This document shows, one piece after another, positions 21,956 through 30,146 of a stretch of DNA of 64,000 nt. Location of the stretch: the NCBI RefSeq assembly GCF_014655295.1, contig NZ_BNBI01000021.1, forward strand, positions 1 through 64,000, given 5' to 3'. The DNA is from Streptomyces fumanus. GTDB lineage: Bacteria; Actinomycetota; Actinomycetes; Streptomycetales; Streptomycetaceae. A program made the translations under genes and the position numbers. The notes beneath the pieces were generated by a model. It did no database searches. It was not told the origin of the DNA and was given only the letters and a program-made list of their open reading frames with translations. Numbering within the stretch: the first letter of the stretch is position 1; the number at the start of each line of letters is the position of its first letter.

Positions 21956-22094
21956 GCGCGGTGTCCTTCCGTGCTGCGCCCCCAGCCGGACGGAGCGGGA
22001 CCGGAGGGCATGGGGGCGGAATGACGACGGTAGGGGCCGGGGGCCGGCGGGCGCCCGGTCCGGGGCGGCCGTCCCGCGTCCGGCGCGGCGGTGC

Positions 22095-22415
22095 TCACAG
22101 GGCCTGCCCGAGGGCGGCGATCACGTCCGCCTTGCGGGGCTGTCCGGCGGCCCGCCGGACCACCCGGCCGCCCGCGTCCAGTACCAGCACGGTGGGGGTC
22201 TTCACCACCTCCAGCGCGCGCACCAGGTCGAGCCGGGCCTCGGCGTCGATCTCGACGTGGGCCACGCCCGGCACCAGGGCGGCGACCTCGCCGAGCACCC
22301 GCCGGGTGGCCCGGCAGGGGGCGCAGAAGGCGGTGGAGAACTGCACGAGCGTGGCCCGCTCGCCGAGTTCGGCGCCCAGTTCCGCCGGATCGAGCCGGCT
22401 GTCCTCCTCGCGCAC
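22095..22415 (-). CDS. Thioredoxin family protein
   Basis: 106 residues, single thioredoxin fold with active site CAPC at residues 31-34 (FCAPC rather than the usual WCGPC) and the cis-Pro loop KTPTVLVLD. I place the start at the GTG 22415 because GGGAGAGGC precedes it; upstream in-frame starts would add an unrelated basic extension. Cytoplasmic disulfide reductase. It precedes the flavin reductase gene on the same strand (139 bp gap). The CAPC site suggests altered redox potential. Confidence 0.88.
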   Translation of the reverse strand: MREEDSRLDPAELGAELGERATLVQFSTAFCAPCRATRRVLGEVAALVPGVAHVEIDAEARLDLVRALEVVKTPTVLVLDAGGRVVRRAAGQPRKADVIAALGQAL

Positions 22416-22587
22416 GCCTCTCCCTTCCGTCCCGTCGGTCCGTGACACGACAGCGCTCCGGAGGGCGCGGAGATTCCCGGCCGCCATGACGTGCGGGGAC
22501 GACGTGACGAGAATCTCGCCGCGCGCGGGCACCAGGGCTGGTTCCCCGCCCGTTCTTCGGGCACGATCTGCGACAAGCCCGTAAACC

Positions 22588-22625
22588 TACGGATGCGTAA
22601 CTTCCGACTGGGAGCCCCTTCCCAG
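22588..22625 (+). promoter_or_regulatory. plsC upstream palindrome and leader hairpin
   Basis: TACG-gatg-CGTA at 22588-22599, followed by a hairpin CTGGGA-6-TCCCAG at 22608-22625, 29 bp before the ATG. The palindrome may be an operator of a lipid-responsive regulator; this is inference from the gene's function. Confidence 0.4.
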
Positions 22626-22653
22626 CCAGAGCAGGAAAGGGTCCGTCCGACCC

Positions 22654-23382
22654 ATGGCAGAACTTGTCTACCGCCCGGTCATCGGTGTGGCCCGCACGCT
22701 GTTCAAGGCGTGGGACCTCAAGATCGATTGCCGTGGTTCGGAGAACATCCCGCGCTCGGGCGGCGCCGTGCTGGTGAGCAACCACATCAGCTACCTGGAC
22801 TTCGTCTTCAACGGCCTGGCGGCGCTGCCGCAGAAGCGGCTGGTGCGTTTCATGGCGAAGGAGTCCGTGTTCCGGCACCGGATCTCGGGTCCCCTGATGC
22901 GCGGCATGAAGCACATCCCGGTGGACCGCAAGCAGGGCGAGGCGGCGTACGCGCACGCCCTGGACTCGCTGAGATCGGGCGAGATCATCGGGGTCTTCCC
23001 GGAGGCGACCATCTCGGAGTCGTTCACGCTCAAGAGCTTCAAGTCGGGCGCCGCGCGCCTGGCGCAGGAGGCGGGCGTGCCGCTGATCCCGATGGCGGTG
23101 TGGGGCACCCAGCGGCTGTGGACCAAGGGCCACCCGCGCAACTTCAAGCGCCACCACATCCCGATCACCATCCGGGTCGGCGAGGCGATGGAGGCCGGCC
23201 GCGACCAGTACGCGGGGGCGATCACGCGCAAGCTGCGCGAGCGGGTGCAGGAGCTGCTGGAGGCCGCGCAGCGCGCCTACCCGGTGCGGCCCAAGGGCCC
23301 GGACGACACCTGGTGGATGCCGGCCCACCTCGGCGGCACGGCCCCGACGCCGGAGCAGGTCCGCGCGGCCGAGGCCCACTGA
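22654..23382 (+). CDS. 1-acyl-sn-glycerol-3-phosphate acyltransferase (PlsC-like)
   Basis: 242 residues with the acyltransferase H(X4)D motif NHISYLD (about residues 43-49), the substrate-binding FPEATIS (116-122, a variant of FPEGTRS) and VPLIPMAVWGTQ. It transfers an acyl chain to lysophosphatidic acid at the membrane in phospholipid synthesis. No SD is strong; the ATG at 22654 begins the conserved AELVYRPVIGVART. The C-terminal 20 residues are extended compared with minimal PlsC. Confidence 0.92.
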   Translation: MAELVYRPVIGVARTLFKAWDLKIDCRGSENIPRSGGAVLVSNHISYLDFVFNGLAALPQKRLVRFMAKESVFRHRISGPLMRGMKHIPVDRKQGEAAYAHALDSLRSGEIIGVFPEATISESFTLKSFKSGAARLAQEAGVPLIPMAVWGTQRLWTKGHPRNFKRHHIPITIRVGEAMEAGRDQYAGAITRKLRERVQELLEAAQRAYPVRPKGPDDTWWMPAHLGGTAPTPEQVRAAEAH

Positions 23383-23389
23383 CGGGCGG

Positions 23390-23995
23390 TCACCGGCCGT
23401 CCGGCAGCTCGGCGGGCAGGGTCCGCCACAGGTGCGGCCGGTCGGTGGCGGCCTTGAGGGCGTCCAGGACCGCCGGGAGCGGCGCGGCGTACAGCACCGG
23501 GTGGTCCGCCTCCCCCTGCTCCGGGTCCGGGGTGAAGGCCAGGTGCTCGCCGTCGAGGGAGAAGCGGGCGTCGACGCCCGGTTTGTTGCCGCGCGGGTCC
23601 TGCCGGTGCCAGGCGCCGTGGAAGCGGACGGCGACCAGGCCGTGCAGGACGTGTCCGCTGCCGTCGTCGTGCAGCAGGCGCTGGTAGCAGAGCGCGGTGG
23701 GGATGTCCTCGGCGCGCAGCAGCGCGGCGAGCGCGTGCGCCTTGGCGTGGCAGATGCCGGTGCGCTCGGCCAGTACGTCGGAGGCCCGCCAGGTGACGCG
23801 GAGATCACCGAAGTCCTGCGAGTGCGGCACCGTGTCGCGGACGAACTCGTAGGCGAGCCGCGCATAGGCATACGAGTCCTGCGCGTCCCTGGCGAGGCGC
23901 GCGGCCGTCTCCCGGACCCGGGGATGGTGGTGGTCGATGACCTCGTCGGCGGCGAGATACGCGGAGAGGTCGGGGTTTTCCTGGATCAGCTCCAT
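23390..23995 (-). CDS. Transglutaminase-like (cysteine protease fold) protein
   Basis: 201 residues. Catalytic Cys82 in ERTGICHAKAHALAALL, His near 118 (SGHVLHGLVAV) and a downstream Asp/Asn region. This is the small bacterial transglutaminase-domain group, whose members mostly act as peptidases or amidases. I prefer the ATG at 23995 over an in-frame GTG at 24022; neither has a convincing SD. It ends 7 bp from the convergent PlsC gene. Cytoplasmic; substrate unknown. Confidence 0.85.
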   Translation of the reverse strand: MELIQENPDLSAYLAADEVIDHHHPRVRETAARLARDAQDSYAYARLAYEFVRDTVPHSQDFGDLRVTWRASDVLAERTGICHAKAHALAALLRAEDIPTALCYQRLLHDDGSGHVLHGLVAVRFHGAWHRQDPRGNKPGVDARFSLDGEHLAFTPDPEQGEADHPVLYAAPLPAVLDALKAATDRPHLWRTLPAELPDGR

Positions 23996-24070
23996 GTCCG
24001 GAGAGCATAGGAAAGCGATCACCCGAAGGTCAATGACTTTTCAGGTGACCGCATATCTATGCAGAGCGGC

Positions 24071-25141
24071 TCAGTGCGCCATCTCCTCCTTGAGGGCGGC
24101 CACGAACGCGTCCACGTCGTCCTCGGTGGTGTCGAAGGCGCACATCCAGCGCACGTCACCGGCGGCCTCGTCCCAGAAGTAGAACCGGAACCGCCGCTGC
24201 AGGCGCTCGCTCACCTCGTGCGGCAGCCGGGCGAAGACCGCGTTGGACTGCACCGGGTAGAGGATCTCCACCCCGTGCACCGCGCGGACGCCCTCGGCCA
24301 GGCGCTGGGCCATCTCGTTGGCGTGCCGGGCGTTGCGCAGCCACAGGTCCTTGGCGAGCAGCGCCTCCAACTGCACGGAGACGAACCGCATCTTGGAGGC
24401 GAGCTGCATGGACAGCTTGCGCAGGTGCTTCATGTGCCGCACGGCGTCCTGGTCGATGACCACGACGGCCTCGCCGAACAGGGCGCCGTTCTTGGTGCCG
24501 CCCAGGGAGAGGATGTCCACGCCGACCGCGTTGGTGAACGTCCGCATGGGCACGTCCAGGGAGGCGGCGGCGTTGGCTATCCGGGAGCCGTCCAGGTGCA
24601 CCCGCATGCCGCGGGCGTGGGCGTGCTCGCAGATCGCCCGGATCTCGTCGGGCGTGTAGAGGGTGCCCAGCTCGGTGGACTGGGTGATCGAGACGACCTG
24701 CGGCATCGCGCGGTGCTCGTCCTCCCAGCCGTACGCCTGCCGGTCGATCAGCTCGGGGGTGAGCTTGCCGTCGGGGGTGGGGACGGTGAGGAGCTTCAGC
24801 CCGCCCATGCGCTCGGGGGCGCCGCCCTCGTCGACGTTGATGTGGGCGCTCTCGGCGCAGATCACCGCGCCCCAGCGGTCGGTGACCGCCTGGAGCGCGA
24901 CGACGTTGGCACCGGTGCCGTTGAAGACCGGGAACGCCTCGGCGGTGGGGCCGAAGTGGCCCCGGATCACGCGCTGGAGGTTGGCGGTGTAGTCGTCCTC
25001 GCCGTACGCGACCTGGTGCCCGCCGTTGGCCAGGGCCAGGGCGGCGAGCACCTCCGGGTGGGCCCCGGCGTAGTTGTCGCTGGCGAAACCGCGGACCTCG
25101 GGGTCGTGATGGCGACGCGCGTCGGTCTTCGGGGGGTTCAC
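24071..25141 (-). CDS. Low-specificity threonine aldolase
   Basis: 356-residue PLP enzyme of fold type I. FNGTGANVVAL, the Asp in VHLDGSRIANAA and the PLP lysine in LSLGGTKNGALFG (about K214) mark the beta-eliminating lyase/threonine aldolase family, which cleaves L-threonine or other beta-hydroxy amino acids to glycine and an aldehyde. Its GTG start overlaps the SDR stop (GTGA), so it is the third gene of the DUF6421 operon. The context suggests a beta-hydroxy amino acid other than threonine may be the real substrate. Confidence 0.92.
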   Translation of the reverse strand: MNPPKTDARRHHDPEVRGFASDNYAGAHPEVLAALALANGGHQVAYGEDDYTANLQRVIRGHFGPTAEAFPVFNGTGANVVALQAVTDRWGAVICAESAHINVDEGGAPERMGGLKLLTVPTPDGKLTPELIDRQAYGWEDEHRAMPQVVSITQSTELGTLYTPDEIRAICEHAHARGMRVHLDGSRIANAAASLDVPMRTFTNAVGVDILSLGGTKNGALFGEAVVVIDQDAVRHMKHLRKLSMQLASKMRFVSVQLEALLAKDLWLRNARHANEMAQRLAEGVRAVHGVEILYPVQSNAVFARLPHEVSERLQRRFRFYFWDEAAGDVRWMCAFDTTEDDVDAFVAALKEEMAH

Positions 25142-25884
25142 GGCTTCTCGGTCAGCCACAGACGGTTTCCGTTCACTTCCGCGGCGGGCTTCTGCCAGAC
25201 TCCGGCGACCGCCTCGGCGAGGTCCTTGACGTCCGTGAAGCCCGCGAACTTCGCGTTGGGGCGCTCGGCGCGCATCGCGTCGTGCACCAACGCCTTGACC
25301 ACCAGGATCGCAGCCGCCGAGGTGGGCCCCTGCTCGCCCCCCGCCTTGCGGAAGTGGTCCGCCAGCGCCAGCGTCCACGCCTCGGCGGCGGCCTTGGCGG
25401 CGGAGTAGGCGGCGTTGCCCGCGGTCGGCCGGGTCGCGCCGGCCGCGCTGATCAGGACGTAGCGGCCGCGGTCGCTGCGCTGGAGGGCCTCGTGGAAGGC
25501 GAGGGAGGTGTGCTGGACGGTGCGGACCAGCAGTTTCTCCAGCAGGTCCCAGTCGGCGAGGTCGGTGGCGGTGAAGCTCGCGCTGCCGCGCCAGCCGCCG
25601 ACGAGGTGGACCAGGCCGTCGACCCGGCCGTGGTCCTTCTCGATCCGGCCCGCCCAGTCCCGGGCGGCGGCCGGGTCGAGCAGGTCGACCGTCTCACCGG
25701 TGACGGTGGCGCCGCCGTGCGCGGAGCGGGCCGCGTCGACGGCCTCCGCCAGCCTCTGCGGGTCGTTGTCCGAACCGACGACCGTCGCCCCCGCCTCGGC
25801 GAGCCGCAGCAGCGCGGCCCGCCCCGCGGGACCGCCGGCCCCGGCCACCGCGACCACCGCGCCGTCGAGAGTGCCGTTCCCCAT
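25138..25884 (-). CDS. SDR family NAD(P)-dependent oxidoreductase
   Basis: 248 residues, short-chain dehydrogenase. Nucleotide motif AVAGAGGPAGRAAL is a variant of TGxxxGxG; the catalytic Ser is in VLISAAG and the YxxxK site in AAYSAAKAAAE (about Y160, K164). I choose the ATG at 25884, preceded by GGAGG; a GTG at 25923 overlapping the DUF6421 stop has no SD. Located between DUF6421 and threonine aldolase in one operon. A redox step on a hydroxy/oxo intermediate is plausible; the substrate is unknown. Confidence 0.9.
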   Translation of the reverse strand: MGNGTLDGAVVAVAGAGGPAGRAALLRLAEAGATVVGSDNDPQRLAEAVDAARSAHGGATVTGETVDLLDPAAARDWAGRIEKDHGRVDGLVHLVGGWRGSASFTATDLADWDLLEKLLVRTVQHTSLAFHEALQRSDRGRYVLISAAGATRPTAGNAAYSAAKAAAEAWTLALADHFRKAGGEQGPTSAAAILVVKALVHDAMRAERPNAKFAGFTDVKDLAEAVAGVWQKPAAEVNGNRLWLTEKP

Positions 25885-25919
25885 CGTCGCCTCCAGCGAT
25901 GCTTCGTCGGTGCGGTCGC

Positions 25920-27317
25920 TCACGCGGCGGCCCGCTCGGCGCCGTCCGCCGTGATGCCCCGGGTCGAGGCGATGACGTTCTTGAGCTTCTTGGCCAGCGC
26001 CTCGTAGAACATGCTCAGCGGAAACTCGTCCGGGAGCACGTCGTCGACGAGTTTGCGCGGCGGCTGGGTCAGGTCCAGGGCGTCGGGGCCCTTGGCCCAG
26101 GTGGAGCCCGGGTGCGGGGCGAGGTAGGTGGAGACCAGCTCGTACCCGGCGAACCAGTGGACCAGCTTGGGGCGGTCGATGCCGTCCCGGTAGAGGCGCT
26201 CGATCTGAGCGCACAGGCGGTTGGTGACCTCGGGGGCGCGCTCCCAGTCGATGGAGAGCTTGTTGTCGGTCCAGCGGACGACGTCGTGCTTGTGCAGGTA
26301 GGCGAAGAGGAGCTGGCCGCCGAGCCCGTCGTAGTTGCGGACCCGGGCGCCGGTGACGGGGAACCGGAACATGCGGTCGAACAGGACCGCGACCTGCACG
26401 TCACGCGCCTGCGGGACGCCCTCGCCGGCGAGCTTCACGGCCTCCTTGAAGGCGGTGAGGTCGCAGCGCAGCTCCTCCAGGCCGTACATCCAGAACGGCT
26501 GGCGCTGCTTGATCATGAAGGGGTCGAAAGGCAGGTCGCCGTGGCTGTGGGTGCGGTCGTGGATCATGTCCCACAGGACGAACGCCTCCTCGCAGCGCTT
26601 CTGGTCGTGCACCAGCGCGGCGACGTCCGCGGGCAGCTCCAGGCCGAGGAGGTCGACGGCGGCGGCGGTGACGCGGCGGAACCGGGCGGCCTCGCGGTCG
26701 CAGAAGATGCCGCCCCAGGAGAACCGCTCGGGGGCCTCGCGCACGGCGATGGTCTCCGGGAAGAGGACGGCGGAGTTGGTGTCGTACCCGGAGGTGAAGT
26801 CCTCGAAGGTGATGCCGCAGAACAGCGGGTTGTCGTAGCGGGTGCGCTCCAGTTCGGCCAGCCAGTCCGGCCAGACCATGCGCAGCACGACCGCTTCGAG
26901 GTTGCGGTCGGGGTTGCCGTTCTGCGTGTACATCGGGAAGACGACCAGGTGCTGGAGGCCGTCGCGGCGGTCCGCGGCCGGCTGGAAGGCCAGCAGCGAG
27001 TCCAGGAAGTCGGGCACCTGGAAGCCGCCCTCGGCCCACCGGCCCAGGTCCGTCACGAGGGCCTCGTGGTAGGCGCGGTCGTGGGGCAGCAGCGGCGACA
27101 GCTCGCGTACGGCGCCGGCGACCCGGCGTACGGTCTCCTCGGCGGTGGCACGGTCCGGGGCGCCCTCGGCGGTGAAGTCGATCGAGCCGTCCTTGGACTG
27201 CCAGGGCCGGATGCGCTCCACGGCATCCTTGAGCACGGGCCACGCCGGGTGCTCCACCACCCTGCTCACCGGAGGAACCTGTACCTCCGGACCCACCTGC
27301 ACAAGAATTTCCGTCAT
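25920..27317 (-). CDS. DUF6421 family protein
   Basis: 465 residues of a large uncharacterised actinobacterial family; the DUF number is from memory. No signal peptide or membrane segment. A striking His/Asp cluster, WDMIHDRTHSHGDLPFDPF (about 246-264), looks like a metal-binding site, and there are many aromatic residues (FSWGGIFCD; QRQPFWMYGLEELRCDL). First gene of an operon with an SDR and a threonine aldolase: 35 bp to the SDR start and a 4-bp overlap after it. GGAGG lies 8 bp before the ATG. An enzyme role, perhaps metal- or oxygen-dependent, is inference. Confidence 0.85.
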   Translation of the reverse strand: MTEILVQVGPEVQVPPVSRVVEHPAWPVLKDAVERIRPWQSKDGSIDFTAEGAPDRATAEETVRRVAGAVRELSPLLPHDRAYHEALVTDLGRWAEGGFQVPDFLDSLLAFQPAADRRDGLQHLVVFPMYTQNGNPDRNLEAVVLRMVWPDWLAELERTRYDNPLFCGITFEDFTSGYDTNSAVLFPETIAVREAPERFSWGGIFCDREAARFRRVTAAAVDLLGLELPADVAALVHDQKRCEEAFVLWDMIHDRTHSHGDLPFDPFMIKQRQPFWMYGLEELRCDLTAFKEAVKLAGEGVPQARDVQVAVLFDRMFRFPVTGARVRNYDGLGGQLLFAYLHKHDVVRWTDNKLSIDWERAPEVTNRLCAQIERLYRDGIDRPKLVHWFAGYELVSTYLAPHPGSTWAKGPDALDLTQPPRKLVDDVLPDEFPLSMFYEALAKKLKNVIASTRGITADGAERAAA

Positions 27318-27352
27318 GTTCCATCCTCCACGGGAGAACCTCGCGTAAGGAC

Positions 27353-27382
27353 ACCGTATGGGTACAGGCTTTCCCCCAGCAA
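27353..27382 (-). promoter_or_regulatory. Promoter of the DUF6421 operon
   Basis: On the minus strand TTGCTG (27382-27377), 18-bp spacer, TACGGT (27358-27353). The leader to the ATG at 27317 is about 30 nt and contains GGAGG. Confidence 0.6.
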
Positions 27383-27525
27383 GGGGAGACTCGGGAAATT
27401 ATCCTGCCGCACCCCCTGGTTCACCGCACTTTTTCCTGTGGGTCATGCGGGACGGGTACGTCTTGTCGACGGACGGTTAGGCTGCGGCCCTGCCACCGCC
27501 GCCGTCCACGGAAGCGAGTCGCGTC

Positions 27526-28209
27526 GTGAACTTCCTGACCATCGGACACCGGGGCGTCATGGGTGTCGAGCCGGAGAACACCCTGCGTTCCTTCACCGCC
27601 GCCGAGCGGGCCGGCCTCGACATGATCGAACTCGATCTGCATCTGAGCAGGGACGGCGCCCTGGTCGTCATGCACGACGAGTACGTGGACCGCACCACCG
27701 ACGGCACCGGTCCGATCGCCGAGCGGACCCTCGCCGAACTGCGGGCGCTGGACGCGGGGCGCGAGGAGCGCGTACCGGTCTTCGAGGAGGTGCTCGACGC
27801 GGTGTCGCTGCCGTTGCAGGCGGAGATCAAGGACGTGGCGGCGGCCCGCGTGCTGGCCGAGGTGATGACCGCGCGGGACCTGACCGGGCGGGTGGAGGTC
27901 TCCTCGTTCCACGACGAGGCGGTCGCCGAGATCGCCCGCCTGGTGCCGGGGGTACGCACCGCCCTGATCGCCAGCCGCTACGGAACGGACGTGGTGGACC
28001 GCGCGGTCCACGTCGGTGCCGCGACGCTCTGTCTGAACATCCGCCGGCTCACCCTGGAGATCGTCGAGCGGGCCCGGAAGGCCGACCTGCGGATCATCGG
28101 CTGGGTGGTCAACACCCAGGACCACCTGCGGCTGGTGCGGGCCCTGGGGCTGGACGGGGCGACCACCGACTACCCCGAGATCAAGCGGACCGGCCGCTTC
28201 ACCGCGTGA
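27526..28209 (+). CDS. Glycerophosphodiester phosphodiesterase
   Basis: 227 residues, GDPD TIM-barrel. Catalytic HR pair in GHRG (H8), PENT, ELDLHLSRDGALVVMHDE with the metal-binding acidic residues and second His, and the Lys in LQAEIKD. Hydrolyses glycerophosphodiesters to sn-glycerol-3-phosphate and an alcohol. No signal peptide, so it acts in the cytoplasm. GTG start; a TAGGCT -10-like box is at 27478-27483. Ends 3 bp before a convergent GNAT gene. Confidence 0.93.
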   Translation: MNFLTIGHRGVMGVEPENTLRSFTAAERAGLDMIELDLHLSRDGALVVMHDEYVDRTTDGTGPIAERTLAELRALDAGREERVPVFEEVLDAVSLPLQAEIKDVAAARVLAEVMTARDLTGRVEVSSFHDEAVAEIARLVPGVRTALIASRYGTDVVDRAVHVGAATLCLNIRRLTLEIVERARKADLRIIGWVVNTQDHLRLVRALGLDGATTDYPEIKRTGRFTA

Positions 28210-28212
28210 GGG

Positions 28213-28761
28213 TCAGCCGAGCGGCTTGACCAGCAGCTCGAACCGCAGGTCGTCGCGGAGCGGGATGCCGAACCGCTCGTCGCCGTACGGGAAGGGGCTC
28301 GTCTCGCCGGTACGGCGGTAGCCGCGGCGCTCGTACCAGGCGATGAGGTCCTCGCGCGCGGTGATCACGGTCATCCGCATCTCGCCGGCGCCCCACTCGG
28401 CGCGGGCCCGCCGCTCCGCCTCCGCGAGGACCGCCCGGCCGAGACCGGCGCCCTGCAGGGCCGGGCTGACCGCGAACATCCCGAAGTAGGCGTGGTCGCC
28501 CCGGTGTTCCACCTGGCAGCAGGCGACGATCCGGCCGTCCCGCTCCACGGCGAGCAGCGTGCCGTCCGGTCCCTCGACGACCTCCCGCACGCCCTCGGGG
28601 TCGGTGCGCTGTCCCGCCAGGATGTCCGCCTCCGTGGTCCACCCGGCCCGGCTGGCCTCGCCCCGGTACGCCGACTCGATCAGCGCGACGAGCGCGTCGA
28701 CGTCCGCTTCGGTGGCGTCCCGGAAGGTCAGGTCGGTCGGGTCGGTCACGGCGGTGTCCAT
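28213..28761 (-). CDS. GNAT family N-acetyltransferase
   Basis: 182 residues. The acetyl-CoA-binding motif A is visible (VSPALQGAGLGRAVLAEAE), with a following ITAREDLIAWYERRGYRRTGE typical of GNAT motif B. Acceptor unknown. The ATG at 28761 gives a short Asp/Thr-rich N-terminus before the fold. It lies back to back with the VOC gene (75 bp). Confidence 0.9.
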   Translation of the reverse strand: MDTAVTDPTDLTFRDATEADVDALVALIESAYRGEASRAGWTTEADILAGQRTDPEGVREVVEGPDGTLLAVERDGRIVACCQVEHRGDHAYFGMFAVSPALQGAGLGRAVLAEAERRARAEWGAGEMRMTVITAREDLIAWYERRGYRRTGETSPFPYGDERFGIPLRDDLRFELLVKPLG

Positions 28762-28836
28762 GGTGCGGTCTCTCCGGTCTCTCTGGTCTCTGCGGCGGCA
28801 CCGTCGAGAGTAGCGCTGCCGTTAGGCTCCGTTCGC

Positions 28837-29229
28837 ATGGTTCATGTACTCAGCAGCCGTATCCTGCTCCGCCCCACGGACCCCGACCGCTCCCGCGCCT
28901 TCTACGGCGAACAGCTCGGCCTCGCCGTCCACCGCGAGTTCGGCACCGGACCGGAGCGCGGCACCGTCTACTTCCTCGGCGGCGGCTTCCTGGAGGTCTC
29001 CGGCCGGGCCGAGGCCCCGCCGGGCCCGGGGCCCCGGCTCTGGCTCCAGGTGGCGGACGCGGCGGCGGCCGAGGCCGAACTGCGCGGCCGCGGCGTGGAG
29101 ATCGTCCGGCCGCCGGTCAAGGAGCCGTGGGGCCTGGTGGAGATGTGGATCGAGGACCCGGACGGCACGCCGATCGTCCTGGTGGAGATCCCGGCGGACC
29201 ATCCGCTGCGCTACCGGCCCGGCATCTGA
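28837..29229 (+). CDS. VOC (glyoxalase/bleomycin-resistance) family protein
   Basis: 130 residues, one vicinal-oxygen-chelate unit pair: ILLRPTDPDRSRAFYGEQLGL at the N-terminus and EPWGLVEMWIEDPDGTPIVLVEIP at the C-terminus, with candidate metal ligands His/Glu. Could be an isomerase, dioxygenase or resistance protein; not decidable here. No SD; TAGGCT (28823-28828) ends 8 bases before the ATG, so probably leaderless. The 3' end overlaps the next gene's 3' end by 19 bp. Confidence 0.88.
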   Translation: MVHVLSSRILLRPTDPDRSRAFYGEQLGLAVHREFGTGPERGTVYFLGGGFLEVSGRAEAPPGPGPRLWLQVADAAAAEAELRGRGVEIVRPPVKEPWGLVEMWIEDPDGTPIVLVEIPADHPLRYRPGI

Positions 29230-30146
29230 CCTCGTCCCGGGCGGTGCTCCCAGCCCCGGTCGGTGCGGGTCAGCTCGGTGAACCCGGCGCCGGTCAGCTC
29301 CGCGATCGCCGCCCGGTCGGTCTCCGCCTCGTAGGCGGCGAGCCGGTCCACGCCGCACAGCTCCAGCCACTCGGCGGCGCGGGCGAGCAGCCGCCGCTCC
29401 AGTCCGGTGCCCCGCTCCCCGGGTTCGACGTGCAGGTTGCCGATGTCGGCGAGACCGGCGGCGCGGACGTGCCGCTCGGGCCGGGCCAGGCCGGTGTCGA
29501 CCTCGATGAAGCCCAGGGCGCGGCGCTCGGCGTACGCGGTGAGGCGGGTGCCGCACTCCCCCACCGTGCGCTCGACGGTGACCCCCGCGCCGGCCGGGTC
29601 GGCGGGCAGGTCGCCCACCCGGGCCAGGAGGATCACCTGGGTGTCCCCGACGTGCCGGAAACCGGCGCGTTCCCAGGCGGCGCGGACGTGCGGCCAGGCG
29701 CGGGGCAGTCCGTGGACGACCGGCGCGGGCAGTGCCCCGTCGGCGTACCGGACGCGGACGTTCCAGCGGGCGAGCTGGGCCAGGCAGGCGTGGGCCAGCA
29801 GATCGGCGGCCCGCTCGGCGTCCGGCCGGAAGGAGGCCGGCGGGTGGCACACGAACCAGTCGACCGCACCGGCGTCCCGGTAGTGCGGGCCGACGTCGGG
29901 GTCGTCGCGGTAGCGCAGCAGATGGGCGGCGGCGAGGACGTGCCGGCGCTGTTCGGCGACGAGGGTGAGGCGCTCGCTCACCCAGGGGTCGGTGAGGAAC
30001 TCGTCGGGCTGCCGCTCCAGTTCGCCGAGGACGGTGTTCACCGAGACGGAGACGCCGGGGACGACGGCGGCGATGTGCCGGTTGACGAGATCGGTGAGCT
30101 GATCGCGGTCGTCGCGGCGGAACGGGCGGACCGTGGGCGCGGGCAT
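29211..30146 (-). CDS. GNAT N-acetyltransferase, probable tandem-domain
   Basis: 311 residues. The C-terminal GNAT domain has IGNLHVEPGERGTGLERRLLARA (motif A) and ELTGAGFTELTRTDRGWEH. The N-terminal half, beginning with VRPFRRDDRDQLTDLVNRHIA, looks like a second, degenerate GNAT. The ATG at 30146 follows GGAGG with 5-bp spacing, which rules out the longer start at 30188. Substrate unknown. Confidence 0.87.
   Translation of the reverse strand: MPAPTVRPFRRDDRDQLTDLVNRHIAAVVPGVSVSVNTVLGELERQPDEFLTDPWVSERLTLVAEQRRHVLAAAHLLRYRDDPDVGPHYRDAGAVDWFVCHPPASFRPDAERAADLLAHACLAQLARWNVRVRYADGALPAPVVHGLPRAWPHVRAAWERAGFRHVGDTQVILLARVGDLPADPAGAGVTVERTVGECGTRLTAYAERRALGFIEVDTGLARPERHVRAAGLADIGNLHVEPGERGTGLERRLLARAAEWLELCGVDRLAAYEAETDRAAIAELTGAGFTELTRTDRGWEHRPGRGQMPGR

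Follow-up and report, generated by a model that had tools for sequence, protein, structure and literature searches.

The window analyzed here is a 64,000-nucleotide stretch of Streptomyces fumanus DNA (assembly GCF_014655295.1, contig NZ_BNBI01000021.1, positions 1 to 64,000) from a genome of 8.15 Mb in 45 contigs. It carries a compact group of minus-strand genes, whose features are as follows, in the direction of transcription:

27318..27393, minus strand: leader with a GGAGGA ribosome site and a promoter-like TTGCTG-18-TACGGT element
25920..27317, minus strand: DUF6421 protein (PF19985), a PolE-family putative Fe/pterin-dependent amino-acid oxidase, 465 aa, SCO1089 counterpart
26544..26561, minus strand: HDRTHS, approximate codons 253-258 (from translation and alignment columns), opening the putative Fe-binding HDxxHx23E motif
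about 26475-26477, minus strand: putative third ligand E281, downstream of the HDRTHS codons
25138..25884, minus strand: SDR, candidate quinonoid dihydropterin reductase or product dehydrogenase, 248 aa, SCO1088 counterpart, GGW replacing NNAG
24071..25141, minus strand: PLP-dependent L-threonine/beta-hydroxy amino acid aldolase (PF01212), 356 aa, SCO1087 counterpart
24047..24066, no strand assigned: ArgR-box-like site 2, with 3 mismatches to the SCO1086 box printed in PMC5839063
24027..24046, no strand assigned: ArgR-box-like site 1, with 2 mismatches to the same box
23390..24022, minus strand: transglutaminase-like protein (PF01841, by Pfam), SCO1086 counterpart, start codon not fixed

Open-frame and translation checks showed the DUF6421, SDR, and aldolase genes to be open frames on the minus strand. 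The DUF6421 gene begins with an ATG at 27317 and its stop ends at 25920. After a gap of 35 bp, the SDR gene runs from an ATG at 25884 to 25138, and the aldolase gene starts with a GTG at 25141, where GTGA forms a 4-bp overlap with the SDR stop, and ends at 24071. The coordinates of the motif codons were computed from the DUF6421 start codon at 27317, and SCO numbers were assigned by gene order and by the product names in PMC8346170. A first-pass annotation of this DNA had described three linked genes on one strand with this spacing, an HDRTHSHGD cluster in the DUF6421 protein (residues 253-261), and a TTGCTG-18-TACGGT promoter with a ribosome site before the first gene, all of which are present in the sequence. 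Its three-gene operon is indeed a conserved one, but the description missed a fourth gene (23390-24022), which the published operon in S. coelicolor also contains, and the two ArgR-box-like sites between genes 3 and 4 were likewise absent from it. A search of 22000-29500 against Rfam found no RNA elements.

Membership of the first gene product in the PolE family is well supported. In Pfam it matches PF19985 with 747.6 bits against a curated cut-off of 25 (NCBIfam gave no match for the protein), and phmmer matched it to PDB chains of PolE with an E-value near 1e-12, the identity of the window subfamily to PolE being 19-30% depending on the alignment. The HDRTHSHGD cluster corresponds to the HE/DxxHx(21-23)E motif of the family: HDRTH is followed after 23 residues by E281. 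In an alignment of 17 family members that included a true PolE (from locus L033), all 17 sequences agree at the columns of the putative ligands H253, H257, and E281, and the residue after the first motif histidine is Asp in the window subfamily and Glu in PolE. SnPolE F140 and Y280, both mutated in deposited SnPolE structures, align with the invariant F186 and Y329, and two aligners put SnPolE Y157 at different positions of the window protein. The AlphaFold model has a mean pLDDT of 81.8, with low confidence for residues 259-271 in the motif region, and PolE chains take the first six places in a Foldseek search with it (E 1e-14 to 1e-13; TM 0.76 on the target). The metal-site-like character initially ascribed to this protein thus gains in substance: a metal site is predicted and probable, its His, Asp, and Glu residues are conserved in the family, and the predicted structure retrieves the PolE fold first.

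PolE is a DUF6421 member that functions as an Fe/pterin-dependent L-Ile desaturase requiring Fe(II), O2, and BH4, and soluble mutants of its HExxHxnE motif are inactive; its authors put DUF6421 forward as a new Fe/pterin family and noted that many members adjoin other amino-acid-modifying enzymes (PMC12614342). The designation of DUF6421 as a family of unknown function, on which the first-pass annotation relied, is therefore outdated, and the first gene product is likely an Fe/pterin oxidase of an amino acid. It is highly improbable that the window subfamily is instead metallopeptidase-like or non-catalytic and merely shares the fold of dipeptidyl-peptidase III. Structures of that enzyme do come next after PolE in the fold search, a likeness already described for PolE by its authors (PMC12614342), but PolE matches far better (E 1e-14 versus 8e-9), and the site carries the PolE motif, with HDRTHSHGD in place of the HExxGH zinc motif.

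Other members of the family occur in different surroundings. The second DUF6421 protein of one Streptomyces genome (L033, 8956-10077, G162:C1) is a true PolE, matching SnPolE with 692 bits along its whole length, and its very long flanking frames resemble peptide-synthetase genes, suggesting a cluster that uses dehydro-isoleucine. In two genomes of another class, DUF6421 is fused to an N-terminal DUF4350-like domain (L031, 7391-9553, and L032, 8125-10413), and the fusion gene of L031 adjoins dnaG.

DUF6421 was found in 15 of 246 genomes in a spread sample of the phylum and in all 151 Streptomyces genomes (150 at full-length score), nine of which were also checked for the SDR and the aldolase. 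The SDR is the next gene after DUF6421 in 16/16 full-length loci examined. An intact aldolase follows this pair in 13 of the 16, once with an inserted gene; one of the remaining loci has a broken aldolase remnant, and in two the aldolase lies 17-26 kb off. The 4-bp overlap between aldolase and SDR recurs in most Streptomyces loci. In Micrococcales, the SDR is next to DUF6421 in 80/80 loci and the aldolase is within 4 kb in 71/80; these loci, the top matches to a query of Arthrobacter type built from non-Streptomyces members, come mostly from Arthrobacter, Pseudarthrobacter, Sinomonas, and Cryobacterium and are mutually related rather than 80 independent events. Gene calls in related loci are approximate, having been made with a simple script based on codon-position G+C. 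Since the linkage is also present in a different class of the phylum (G157 and G234), it must be old. The joint occurrence anticipated by the first-pass annotation is thus borne out across actinobacteria, where the genes are neighbors in nearly all cases. A record titled Vibrio cholerae strain 35D (L176, WNZI01000002.1), in all probability misnamed or contaminated, also contains an Arthrobacter-like operon (76% identity).

DUF6421-SDR loci without an intact aldolase form a second Arthrobacter clade, and these adjoin either an amino-acid-type ABC importer that includes a family-3 solute-binding protein or a PF00324 amino-acid permease. This neighborhood suggests an amino-acid substrate, and the clade also suggests that the oxidase is more tightly associated with the SDR than with the aldolase. 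In L019, L020, L022, L157, L163, L173, and L174, which have no aldolase or a broken one, the SDR still comes directly after DUF6421, and it thus tracks the oxidase more closely than the aldolase.

The SDR matches adh_short with 79 bits in Pfam. Alignment of 15 operon SDRs revealed an invariant YxxxK and an invariant GGW at the position where most SDRs have NNAG; GGW is also found in the QDPR of human, rat, C. elegans, and Dictyostelium. A QDPR profile scored 12 operon SDRs at 25-35 bits, compared to at most 22.6 bits for 67 other SDR stretches from the window genome, and the SDRs of L021 and the f8 genomes did not outscore ordinary SDRs. The human QDPR sequence used here matches 1HDR from end to end. 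QDPR increased the activity of PolE 2-3 fold (PMC12614342). Counting against a role in pterin recycling, the overall profile and the modeled fold of the SDR appear nearest to classical SDRs, and the QDPR margin is small. Classical SDRs come first when the operon SDR profile is searched against the PDB, with no QDPR among the matches listed; a single-sequence PDB search listed no QDPR at 1e-6; and a VIA-align comparison of the SDR model returned classical SDRs, with no QDPR among the best 50 listed, a comparison in which QDPR is not separable from other SDRs. Since an acidic residue ends the second strand in most Streptomyces members, the enzyme probably uses NADH. The first-pass annotation envisaged a dehydrogenase acting on an aldehyde product; the SDR need not act on an aldehyde, and pterin recycling is at least as plausible. 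On the sequence comparisons above, we slightly favor pterin recycling over a product role, with a probability that falls just short of even.

The SDR is also found in other settings. Three genomes retain it without DUF6421. In G053 (L105, 3524-6000), it directly adjoins dnaG, and DUF6421 and the aldolase are missing, as if lost from between. In G166 (L107, 7695-10374), where DUF6421 is missing, some 1.6 kb and two opposite-strand genes separate an SDR of the operon type from a pterin-4a-carbinolamine dehydratase gene, a linkage too weak to use. The window genome itself has a pterin-4a-carbinolamine dehydratase, and no aromatic amino-acid hydroxylase was found in it, a combination in keeping with the pathway proposed below. 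The dehydratase occurs in 14 of 15 DUF6421 genomes, being missing from one, versus 124 of 231 others (p 0.002, uncorrected). We rejected this co-occurrence as support because it is confounded: nearly all genomes of the class have the gene.

The aldolase matches PF01212 with 171.5 bits in Pfam and the L-threonine aldolases 5vye, 7yvr, and 1v72 over its full length. It was found in 15/15 DUF6421 genomes versus 21/231 others, counts that ignore relatedness. Its occurrence in those 21 genomes without DUF6421 means that its presence alone says little and that it may have a general role. A close relative in G133 (L110, 6927-9624), without DUF6421, adjoins LysE-exporter and LysR-regulator genes.

The upstream region was compared among nine Streptomyces genomes. 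The -10 TACGGT is invariant in these, and the -35 keeps only TTG in most; a promoter-like element upstream of DUF6421 is, by this sequence comparison, conserved. In the intergenic region towards the divergent GDPD gene (27318-27525), a block GACAGGAAAAAGTGCGGTGA and a stretch GGCAGGATAATTTCCCG are each conserved in most of the nine. The S. coelicolor SCO1089-1088-1087-1086 operon has a SigB-dependent promoter and is SigB-dependent under osmotic stress (PMC8346170), and ArgR binds SCO1086, which carries ArgR boxes and is 125-fold up in an argR mutant (PMC3293853, PMC5839063). The first-pass annotation spoke of a candidate undescribed pathway, which is fair for the chemistry, but the operon and its control by SigB were already described in S. 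coelicolor. In the window, the two ArgR-box-like sites lie just before the SCO1086 counterpart, and sequence comparison found several relatives to be alike in this respect. A pattern search allowing up to 3 substitutions found no match to the SigB-type SCO1089p sequence upstream of the window operon, so its control may differ from that in S. coelicolor.

The gene content initially led to the suggestion of a defined route on a beta-hydroxy amino acid or its aldehyde product; an amino-acid route is probable. In the scheme that we propose, the DUF6421 protein would bind Fe(II) via H253, H257, and E281 and, using O2 and a tetrahydropterin, would attack one of the C-H bonds in a free amino acid, yielding a beta-hydroxylated or desaturated amino acid. 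The SDR would then re-reduce the quinonoid dihydropterin, as slightly favored above, or act on the product. Finally, the PLP aldolase would cleave the beta-hydroxy amino acid to glycine and an aldehyde. A desaturated product is no substrate for the aldolase, which requires a beta-hydroxy group. Since PolE desaturates, the window subfamily would thus have to hydroxylate, and hydroxylation is plausible for an Fe(IV)-oxo enzyme. The desaturation by PolE, together with the identity of only 19-30% between it and the window subfamily, counts against the pathway, and we regard an oxidative amino-acid pathway encoded by the operon as a whole as a tentative reading that does not quite reach the level of probable.

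Two other arrangements of the same enzymes have to be weighed. It is possible, if rather doubtful, that the DUF6421 protein is an Fe/pterin oxidase whose pterin other cellular reductases recycle, and that the SDR is an ordinary pathway dehydrogenase or reductase, oxidizing the hydroxylated amino acid or reducing the aldehyde freed by the aldolase. An aldolase and an aldehyde reductase form a natural pair, the sequence profile and predicted fold of the SDR group it with FabG and ribitol/butanediol dehydrogenases, and its survival in three genomes without DUF6421 is consistent with such a role. Against this arrangement, the SDR is found behind DUF6421 also in the loci with a missing or broken aldolase, and it shares with the QDPRs the replacement of NNAG by GGW.

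Alternatively, the aldolase could stand outside the route and merely share its transcript, with the DUF6421 protein being a PolE-like desaturase that makes a dehydro amino acid and the aldolase being an ordinary threonine or allo-threonine aldolase, for example one that supplies glycine. The only characterized DUF6421 member desaturates, the aldolase is related over its full length to general L-threonine aldolases and also occurs without DUF6421, in one genome beside LysE and LysR genes instead, and SCO1087 has been discussed as a glycine-related protein (PMC13170358). Nevertheless, we consider this arrangement unlikely, given that 71/80 Micrococcales loci, and also members of another class, keep the aldolase close to DUF6421-SDR, and that its 4-bp overlap with the SDR in most Streptomyces loci is more than loose co-transcription would need.

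For a long time, to our knowledge, no Fe/pterin enzymes of this sort were known other than the aromatic amino-acid hydroxylases; a second family was added in 2025 with PolE. The enzyme family, the operon, and its regulation are already known. The window subfamily is present in every sampled Streptomyces genome, with constant partners that suggest cofactor recycling and a fate for the product. If the proposed pathway is true, it would provide a function for a core, stress-regulated operon of a well-studied genus. In its fullest form, the proposal would be a self-contained bacterial pathway of Fe/pterin amino-acid oxidation, complete with an SDR that recycles its pterin and an aldolase that cleaves its product, forming part of core metabolism in Streptomyces as well as many Micrococcales and controlled by stress; this version as a whole is rather unlikely.

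Among the closest known systems is PolE of polyoxin biosynthesis (PDB 9J2E, 9J33, and 9J3G; PMC12614342), with which the window DUF6421 protein shares the family, the predicted fold, the HE/DxxHx(21-23)E motif, and the residues equivalent to F140 and Y280. The window protein differs in being about 90 residues longer and in having HD instead of HE, and while PolE belongs to an antibiotic cluster, the window protein is encoded in a core chromosomal operon with an SDR and an aldolase. That operon has its counterpart in SCO1089-SCO1086 (PMC8346170), which encodes its products in the same order (hypothetical protein, oxidoreductase, threonine aldolase, and transglutaminase-like protein) and whose SCO1086 ArgR boxes resemble the window sites; the S. 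coelicolor operon has been described for its regulation by SigB, osmotic stress, and ArgR, without an assigned function. The SDR resembles QDPR (PDB 1HDR, 1DHR, 1OOE, and 3ORF) in its length, in having GGW in the NNAG position, and in YxxxK, but overall similarity is weak, and the PDB profile search gives classical SDRs higher scores. The aldolase is similar over its full length, including the GGTKNG region, to aldolases of the L-threonine/phenylserine type (PDB 5VYE, 7YVR, and 1V72), from which the window enzyme differs in its operon context.
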